Shown here piece by piece: positions 28,771-30,777 of a stretch of 64,000 nucleotides of DNA. Position 1 is the stretch's first letter, and every line of letters starts with the position of its first letter. The DNA is from Methylicorpusculum oleiharenae (GTDB taxonomy: Bacteria; Pseudomonadota; Gammaproteobacteria; Methylococcales; Methylomonadaceae), in assembly GCF_009828925.2 (NCBI RefSeq), contig NZ_WUTY02000001.1:682001-746000 (forward strand). The letters run 5' to 3'. The position numbers were made by a program, and so were the translations under genes. The notes beneath the pieces are model-generated. The model did not search any database and was not told the origin of the DNA. It saw only the letters and a list, made by a program, of their open reading frames with translations.

Positions 28771-28791
28771 TATGACAGGAGGAGGTCAACG

Positions 28792-30777
28792 ATGAACATT
28801 TACCCCCCGCACATAGAGATCCTTGAAAAGGCCCCGTCCGGCATTCCAACCATAATTCAAGCACCTTGGTACCGCTCGCCCAGGTTGATTATTTTTTTGA
28901 TGATCTTTTTGTTCTCGGCCTCAATCAGCCTGATTTATAGTTACAGTCGCCCCGCCATTTATCAGAGTACAGCGACCTTACTCACCTCGGCAATGACGGC
29001 TATCGATCAAGCCAGCAAGGCCCCTGATGTAGAACATGTCGCTATTCAACGGCAAATATTGCTAAGTCAGGAATTACTGACTGAAACCATCAGGCGGCTT
29101 AAACTGAAAGACCCCGAAATAAAGATGGACATTACCCAGGTTCATCAAATCTTGCAGGTTCAACCCATTCGGGAAACGAACCTGATTCGAATGCTGGCCG
29201 AAGGCACTGAACCTGGACTCCTGCCTTTACTGATTAATACATGGATCGATGTTTATAGCGATGCGCGTGCGGAGGAAATTAAAAATAACAAAAGCGGGAC
29301 CACGCAAAAGCTAAAGGATGAGCTGCTGGCTTTAGAACAAAAAATCGAAGGGACCCGTTCGGCATTGACTCAATTCAGTAATCAGCATGACATTATCTCA
29401 ACCGGGCGCGATGAAAATGATGTCTTAGCCAGACTGAAAGGATTAACTACATCTCTTAATAACGCTAGTGAAGAAGAAGTTAAAGCCAAAGCTAAACTTG
29501 AAGCCATTAATAAAGCGATTGCCGAAGGTAAGGTTGTTGTGCCTAAACAGGACCAAGCCAATCTAGCAGCGCTTGAGCTTCGCTTGCAGCAACTAAAAGA
29601 AAAACTGGCCGAATTCCAACAGCGCTATACCCCAGGATTTATGGCGTTACAGCCTGCCATCAAACAGCTTCCCCAAGAAATCAAGAAACTTGAAAATGAA
29701 ATAGAAAGTAAGAGTCATTTTGGCAAACAAATAGTCCATTCAGACGCCGAACAGGAATATGCTGCCGCCCGTCAAACCGTGAATGTCATTAAGGAGCAAC
29801 TCCATACTCATAAAAAGTTAGCTGCCGATTTCAGCAACCGCTTCACGGAACACGAAAGGCTTAAAACCGATCTGGAAGGTTTGGAAAAAATTTACCGAGA
29901 AACTCAGGAACGGTATGTACAAATTGAGACTCAGCAGTATGAAAAATACCCGCAAGTTGAAATCGTCGAACGCGCGCGGTTACCGCTACAACCCATCAGT
30001 CCCGATTATCACCGCGATGCCCTGATAGCGGTGTCAGGCTCTCTGTTGTTAGGCCTGATCAGTGTCTGGCTTTTTGACTATTTAACCCGAACGCAACAGC
30101 ATCAACCCAGCGTCATAATATCCGGCTTCGGCATTCCTCAGGATAGTCGATTGAATCATCTGGACTATCAACAAACACCGTTAACTTCGCTGCAACCACA
30201 TCAAAATCCGGCGCAGATAATGGCGCAAGACCGAGAGCTTACTGATAGTGATTTAAAGGATTTACTTATTAACGCCGACAGCCTAACCCAAAGGTTAATC
30301 TGTCTGTTGCTTTGTGGACTTTCGCTTGATGAGACGGCTAACCTTAAACCTGATGATATTGACTTAGGCAAAAGCTCAATGGCACTGCGAGGCTCCATTC
30401 CGCGTATCATTAAACTCAGTGCAGCAACGAAAGACCTGATGGAAAAACTCGTGACATTCCCTGTGTTTAATGAACAGCAATCGCTAACCAATAATGAATT
30501 GTCCGCATTAATCTCACTGGCAGCTACTGATGCGGGTCTGACCCATCCTGAGGAAATCTCTGCAGAATCAATAAGACATACTTATATTGTTTACCTGGTA
30601 AAACAAGGTTTGCGGCTGGGTGAATTAGTGAACCAGGTAGGTTATCTTTCTAGCTCCGATTTACTCAATTACGCAAGATATTCTCCGCCTCGTCCTGGTT
30701 GTGGTATTGACCAAATCGAAACAGTTCACCCAGTACTGGCAGAATTTATAAATAACTTCAAAAAACAGTCTGTTTAA
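28792..30777 (+). CDS. Wzz/GumC-like polysaccharide co-polymerase fused to a degenerate tyrosine-recombinase-like domain
   Basis: 661 residues. The first 430 form a polysaccharide co-polymerase: transmembrane helix at about 32-50, periplasmic region with a long coiled coil (about 170-380), the PLQPISPDYHRDA proline-rich lead (398-410) and a second helix at about 410-428. Where BY-kinases carry an ATPase, this tail (about 480-632) follows the tyrosine-recombinase pattern: RELTDSDLKDLL, then LLLCGLSLDETANLKPDDID, then SIRHTY, VGY and a tyrosine. Aligned to integrase positions, Arg I is S511, the HxxR motif is ESIR (592-595), the His/Trp is Y618, and Y627 sits exactly nine residues later at the nucleophile position. 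Only one arginine and the tyrosine remain, so strand transfer is unlikely. The ribosome-binding site is AGGAGGAGG. A DNA- or protein-binding role is inference. Confidence 0.8.
   Translation: MNIYPPHIEILEKAPSGIPTIIQAPWYRSPRLIIFLMIFLFSASISLIYSYSRPAIYQSTATLLTSAMTAIDQASKAPDVEHVAIQRQILLSQELLTETIRRLKLKDPEIKMDITQVHQILQVQPIRETNLIRMLAEGTEPGLLPLLINTWIDVYSDARAEEIKNNKSGTTQKLKDELLALEQKIEGTRSALTQFSNQHDIISTGRDENDVLARLKGLTTSLNNASEEEVKAKAKLEAINKAIAEGKVVVPKQDQANLAALELRLQQLKEKLAEFQQRYTPGFMALQPAIKQLPQEIKKLENEIESKSHFGKQIVHSDAEQEYAAARQTVNVIKEQLHTHKKLAADFSNRFTEHERLKTDLEGLEKIYRETQERYVQIETQQYEKYPQVEIVERARLPLQPISPDYHRDALIAVSGSLLLGLISVWLFDYLTRTQQHQPSVIISGFGIPQDSRLNHLDYQQTPLTSLQPHQNPAQIMAQDRELTDSDLKDLLINADSLTQRLICLLLCGLSLDETANLKPDDIDLGKSSMALRGSIPRIIKLSAATKDLMEKLVTFPVFNEQQSLTNNELSALISLAATDAGLTHPEEISAESIRHTYIVYLVKQGLRLGELVNQVGYLSSSDLLNYARYSPPRPGCGIDQIETVHPVLAEFINNFKKQSV

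Follow-up and report, generated by a model that had tools for sequence, protein, structure and literature searches.

A Polysaccharide Co-polymerase-Like Protein of Methane- and Ammonia-Oxidizing Bacteria With a Predicted Catalytically Dead Tyrosine-Recombinase Fold as Its Cytoplasmic Tail

Introduction

What might a recombinase domain do at the cytoplasmic end of a membrane protein for polysaccharide export? The question is raised by a gene in a 64,000-nucleotide window of Methylicorpusculum oleiharenae (contig NZ_WUTY02000001.1, positions 682,001 to 746,000, forward strand). The original prediction, made from the DNA letters, described a Wzz-like polysaccharide co-polymerase (PCP) whose tail is a decayed tyrosine-recombinase domain, recruited as a non-catalytic binding module at the place that a BY-kinase usually occupies. 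No description of a Wzz or PCP protein with an integrase or recombinase domain was found in the open-access literature, in agreement with the accompanying statement that no function had been described for such a fusion. In this article, the fusion protein is considered with regard to its structure, its active-site residues, its probable loss of DNA binding, its neighbors, and its relatives.

Organization of the Fusion Gene and Its Co-polymerase Half

The open reading frame is unbroken and encodes one protein of 661 codons (Table 1). The upstream gene, encoding a GH17-like membrane protein, ends approximately 540 bases before it and the next gene downstream lies on the other strand, and owing to this gap and orientation the fusion gene is probably its own transcription unit.

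Table 1. Features of the fusion gene and of the gene upstream, in window positions.
Feature	Positions	Strand	Basis or residues in the 86-row family alignment
GH17-like membrane protein, 568 aa	26546..28252		PF00332 just under cut-off
Ribosome-binding site AGGAGG, 6 bases 5′ of ATG	28780..28785	+	Read directly
Whole gene, PCP with recombinase-fold tail, 661 aa	28792..30777	+	Open reading frame; full-length relatives
Transmembrane helix 1, residues 30–52	28879..28947	+	Model helix 30–52; RSPR just before it (positive-inside)
Periplasmic part with long coiled coils, residues 53–405	28948..30006	+	Model; TIGR03007; Foldseek
Transmembrane helix 2, residues 406–432	30007..30087	+	Model helix 406–432
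Cytoplasmic linker, residues 433–480, mostly disordered	30088..30231	+	pLDDT <50 at 434–477; fast-evolving
Tyrosine-recombinase-fold domain, residues 481–633, predicted catalytically dead	30232..30690	+	Profiles, model, fold matches
S511, Arg I position	30322..30324	+	T46 S29 D6 L2 K2 N1; R in 0
E592, first catalytic His position (HxxR), His II	30565..30567	+	E41 D15 and others; H in 0
R595, Arg II, retained	30574..30576	+	R in 76/86
Y618, second His/Trp position, His III (LGH to VGY)	30643..30645	+	Y42 P12 H11 and others
Y627, nucleophile position	30670..30672	+	Y73 F6 L5 C2
C-terminal extension, residues 634–661, family motif IxxxHPxL	30691..30774	+	P647 in 85/86 rows

Such a frame might arise by sequencing error or by the chance joining of a PCP gene to an independent integrase gene, and recombinase genes abound in this genome, which has 65 matches to PF00589. 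However, the same fusion is found in two congeners (84–89% identical over the full length), at another locus of this genome (G000:C1:567929-569863, equivalent to L021:7921-9873; 42% identical), and in approximately 80 species, as diverged full-length relatives without stops that are mostly 33–53% identical. The join by error, which the original prediction had named as a way in which it could fail, is thereby refuted, and the probability left to it is negligible.

The first half of the protein is that of a PCP, as had been claimed. In the full-length model, two transmembrane helices flank a periplasmic coiled-coil domain, and Wzc is the top Foldseek match of this model (E 2.6e-9), with KpsE and WzzE also among the matches. 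The best curated match of the PCP half is the XrtA-system chain length determinant of NCBIfam, TIGR03007 (E 4.8e-23, residues 33–438), which at 81 of 279 bits stays far below its cut-off, and PF02706 reaches 18.5 of 25.5 bits, also under the curated cut-off. With curated matches that are significant or nearly so, yet below cut-off, the PCP half is classed by sequence as PCP-2-like and as a distinct subfamily of its own, and the polysaccharide role of the fusion protein is assigned by family membership. Unlike the fusion, the TIGR03007 member that the host genome itself possesses has a separate kinase gene. Three canonical PCP loci with BY-kinases are present elsewhere in this genome, besides the two fusions, and thus the fusion represents a separate kind of PCP. 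It resembles the Wzc-type PCP-2a proteins in its two transmembrane helices, large periplasmic coiled-coil part, and C-terminal cytoplasmic domain, whereas this last domain differs from theirs in having a recombinase fold and neither Walker motifs nor a tyrosine-rich tail.

Recombinase Fold of the Cytoplasmic Tail

The tail is folded over residues 485–661 in the full-length model, and its separate AlphaFold model has a pLDDT of 88 and a pTM of 0.86. With the tail model, Foldseek places XerA (5hxy) first (E 4.5e-7) and its leading matches are all tyrosine recombinases; in VIA, the top matches are again all tyrosine recombinases, with a Z of 15.7 and an rmsd of 3.6 over 159 residues against XerA (4a8e). 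Sequence profiles lead to the same fold. NCBIfam yields XerA_Arch (E 6.9e-9) and XerD (E 7.8e-6), a profile search of the PDB yields IntI4 (7.6e-12) and archaeal Xer (1.2e-11), and hhalign aligns the tail with the host genome’s own recombinases at 97.9% probability (E 3.7e-13). The Pfam search is divided: the window tail falls under the PF00589 cut-off (E 6.6e-4, 19.9 of 27.1 bits), whereas among 73 relatives, 51 have a tail that reaches E 0.01 or better against PF00589, the best at 9.8e-9. Since the profiles agree with the structure matches, the resemblance is homology rather than a chance pattern, and residues 481–633 are assigned, from model and profiles, to the tyrosine-recombinase catalytic fold. 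The tail thus bears out the recombinase likeness read from the letters.

The N-terminal core-binding domain of recombinases is absent, residues 434–477 ahead of the tail domain being predicted to be disordered in the full-length model. Furthermore, the Walker A pattern GxxxxGK[ST] is found in 0 of 86 tails, and the tyrosine-rich C-terminus is absent, with a mean of 0.65 Tyr after residue 633 in the same 86 tails. As judged by these motifs, kinase regulation in cis by the tail is excluded.

Loss of the Active Site

Catalytic positions were assigned by alignment to the host genome’s XerC/D-like protein (L115) and were followed through a family alignment of 86 rows, about 82 of them distinct because a few genomes were fetched twice. 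The alignment agrees with every residue call of the original prediction, namely S511, R595, Y627, and a change at both His positions. A survey of homologues for the same fusion and for loss of catalytic residues, which had been suggested along with these calls, found approximately 80 fused relatives and neither Arg I nor the first His in any of the 86 rows, for which reason the tail domain is classed, by its residues, as enzymatically dead. Arg II and the nucleophile Tyr are retained in most members, as they might be in a membrane-tethered active recombinase or topoisomerase; such activity is nevertheless extremely improbable with Arg I and the first His in 0/86, the second His in 11/86, and the Tyr lost in 13/86. 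G509, E514, R538, L602, and G617 are invariant in the family, and the nearly invariant C-terminal motif of Table 1 sits past the recombinase-aligned part.

The tail resembles XerA, XerC, and XerD in its catalytic-domain fold and sequence profile, although it differs from them in being membrane-anchored and in having neither Arg I nor the two His residues, no core-binding domain, and none of the basic character of the DNA-binding domain. This likeness could also be read functionally, the tail mimicking XerC/XerD and binding Xer or FtsK so as to couple export to division or chromosome segregation. The nearest folds and profiles are indeed Xer proteins, including the XerD–FtsK gamma complex (5dcf). 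However, closeness to Xer is expected of any member of the fold and the neighboring genes show no link to division, and we consider this reading very unlikely.

The tail has been kept under selection. In close pairs its dN/dS is 0.05–0.37, and this purifying selection indicates that it is no decaying pseudodomain; the word “decayed” in the original prediction therefore holds for catalysis, with Arg I and the first His gone, and not otherwise. In the window clade, which has the most relaxed tail, tail values are 0.26–0.37 vs. 0.10–0.12 for the PCP part, whereas the tail of the second copy, at 0.05–0.12, is more constrained than that of the window copy. Taken with the structure match and the disappearance of Arg I and the first His throughout the family, this selection upholds the view that a recombinase fold was recruited as a non-catalytic module at the usual place of the BY-kinase.

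Charge of the Tail and DNA Binding

A fold without catalysis may still bind DNA. MrpR of Bacillus phage SPbeta is a catalytically dead relative of recombinases that does so (PMC10516654), and MrpR/YopR share with the tail a tyrosine-recombinase fold, the loss of recombination, and a new role, although they act as soluble DNA-binding repressors and are not fused to a membrane protein (PMC10516654). In like manner, the tail might bind DNA without cutting it, tethering the export machinery to the nucleoid or serving as a regulator bound to the membrane. The tail model matches these repressors at Z 10–11 in VIA, and basic residues are conserved in the family: R538 is invariant, R595 is widely kept, and position 608 holds R or K in 85/86 rows. 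By contrast, an acidic tail core is found in almost every member, with a median pI of 5.0 and charge of −5 across the family and values of 4.8 and −6 in the window copy, whereas the matched parts of the true recombinase domains of the same genome have a pI of 9.5–10.5 and a charge of +4 to +11 over the longer alignments. Furthermore, the β2–β3 hairpin of the window copy (RGSIPR) is shorter than that of XerA and without Lys, some Lys being found there in 13/86 rows. The acidic core together with the missing core-binding domain makes DNA binding by the tail unlikely, and on composition, which is a proxy, DNA binding has probably been lost as well; the tether is an unlikely explanation. Nucleoid or protein partners had both been suggested for the module: the nucleoid is weakened by the acidic core and the lack of a core-binding domain, and protein partners are the likelier reading. 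The more general proposal for methane and ammonia oxidizers, in which a dead Xer-type domain under the export ring would couple envelope polysaccharide to the chromosome or division machinery through DNA, XerC/D, or FtsK, is quite doubtful.

Neighboring Genes

A conserved gene neighborhood was looked for, and none is common to all genera. The GH17-like gene is conserved upstream only in the window genus, and its product is possibly a β-glucan-modifying enzyme. In eight loci (L037, L039-L041, L050, L082, L083, and L086), the gene immediately upstream encodes a SNF2-type helicase. The second fusion of the host genome also adjoins a SNF2 helicase gene and lies approximately 9 kb from a pmoA/amoA-family gene (G000:C1:558154-558867). 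In several of the 10 Methylococcaceae loci in which a TIGR04283 family-2 glycosyltransferase gene is directly downstream, a fatty-acid hydroxylase-like gene and a TIGR04282 gene then follow, and an MsbA-like ABC exporter gene is directly downstream in most Methylothermaceae loci. No Wzx/Wzy cluster was found among the neighbors examined. The neighbors hint at sugar or lipid chemistry, without fixing a pathway.

The glycosyltransferase and the exporter would suit a tail that serves, instead of scaffolding PCP assembly, to dock a single dedicated protein of the cytoplasmic side, which might be a glycosyltransferase, an enzyme of lipid modification, or an exporter. However, the neighbor varies by clade, none of these genes is adjacent in Nitrosospira, Nitrosomonas, or the window genus, and TIGR04283/04282 carry annotations for arsenosugar synthesis and none for a polymer; we regard this explanation as rather unlikely.

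Apart from the fusion loci, the host genome contains many copies of tandem tyrosine-recombinase trios (G000:C1:119420-121772, C1:3420916-3423268, C2:422594-424946, and C3:56456-58808; also C1:2620604-2626483 and C2), and these repeated trios resemble recombinase-in-trio (RIT) elements.

Distribution and Evolution of the Fusion

A scan of 84,980 species genomes yielded 106 relatives, which is a lower bound in that the scan reaches only relatives sharing its patterns. The tail is present in all complete relatives among the 80 fetched. Carriers comprise Methylococcales, Nitrosospira, Nitrosomonas, Nitrosovibrio, Sedimenticola, and other beta- and gammaproteobacteria, and the fusion is conserved across methane- and ammonia-oxidizing bacteria. 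It is rare in even samples, with 6 of 369 genomes of the class and 3 of 398 of the phylum carrying it, all with the tail. A strict link with particulate methane/ammonia monooxygenase was considered and rejected: among the 369 class genomes, the AMO family occurs in 3 of the 6 carriers, and 8 AMO genomes are without the fusion. Co-occurrence amounts to a weak enrichment that is confounded by ancestry. One copy (L092) is from a metagenome-assembled genome labeled Polarisedimenticolaceae (Acidobacteriota); this copy and its downstream neighbors are nearly identical to those of a Sedimenticola metagenome-assembled genome (L090), so it is probably a binning error and does not truly extend the family to another phylum.

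PCP and tail identities are correlated (r 0.85 over 3655 pairs), and thus the halves have travelled together, as expected of one fusion. In the PCP tree, which is of a quick kind and unsure in its deep, long branches, the Nitrosospira/Nitrosovibrio copies (L046-L049, L052-L053, L055-L056, L059-L061, L064, L088, and L095) are nested within Methylobacter-type sequences with a support of 100, a nesting that points to transfer between methanotrophs and ammonia oxidizers; Nitrosomonas forms another clade. One relative (L034:8213-9727) has a full PCP part and no tail, and no separate tail gene was found downstream of it. It is sister to a fused protein with a support of 100, and the tail was therefore apparently lost secondarily; a tailless PCP as the pre-fusion ancestor was considered for L034 and L017 and is rejected for L034. 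In the host genome, no stand-alone tail gene was found: the tail profile retrieves the two fusions at 3.9e-65 and 1.4e-63, and its best value for a true recombinase is 4e-7.

A Proposed Scaffold Beneath the Export Ring

The catalytic domains of recombinases, including Cre, XerC/D, and lambda Int, form cyclic assemblies by handing a C-terminal segment to the neighboring protomer, and this habit would make the fold suited to ring formation. In the explanation that we prefer, with somewhat better than even chances, the tail would be a pseudo-enzyme scaffold in the place of the BY-kinase, lying beneath the PCP ring and organizing PCP assembly by protein–protein contacts. It would take over the role of the BY-kinase in the assembly or timing of the PCP oligomer, without phosphorylation, and cytoplasmic enzymes that transfer sugars or lipids may dock on it; the conserved HPxL motif at the C-terminus is a candidate contact for ring assembly. 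A precedent is EcpK of Myxococcus xanthus, a catalytically dead BY-kinase that has been proposed to be a scaffold for the PCP EpsV through contacts rather than phosphorylation (PMC12004946). Besides this precedent, a scaffold controlling PCP assembly is favored by the folds of both halves, the active site that is dead across the family, the acidic core, the lack of Walker A and of a tyrosine-rich end, the purifying selection on the tail, the correlated divergence of PCP and tail, and the canonical PCP systems with BY-kinases elsewhere in the genome. Both systems pair a co-polymerase with a dead enzyme fold for which a scaffold role is proposed, although EcpK is a separate protein of kinase fold, whereas a recombinase fold in one chain with the co-polymerase is found here. 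Three observations speak against the scaffold: neighbors vary by genus and, among those examined, include no Wzx/Wzy cluster, the most relaxed tail is that of the window’s own clade, and some lineages do without the tail, which is missing from at least one relative (L034).

Perspectives

Current understanding of PCPs is built largely on kinase cycles. If, throughout a conserved family, a dead enzyme of another fold stands in for the kinase, phosphorylation would prove not to be indispensable for the cytoplasmic part of a PCP to function, and unrelated folds would prove to be a possible source of that part. The family would also represent a bacterial domestication of a tyrosine recombinase for a seemingly non-DNA role. 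Both points may be tested in cultivable carriers, Methylotuvimicrobium buryatense 5G (L037) and Nitrosospira multiformis (L059).
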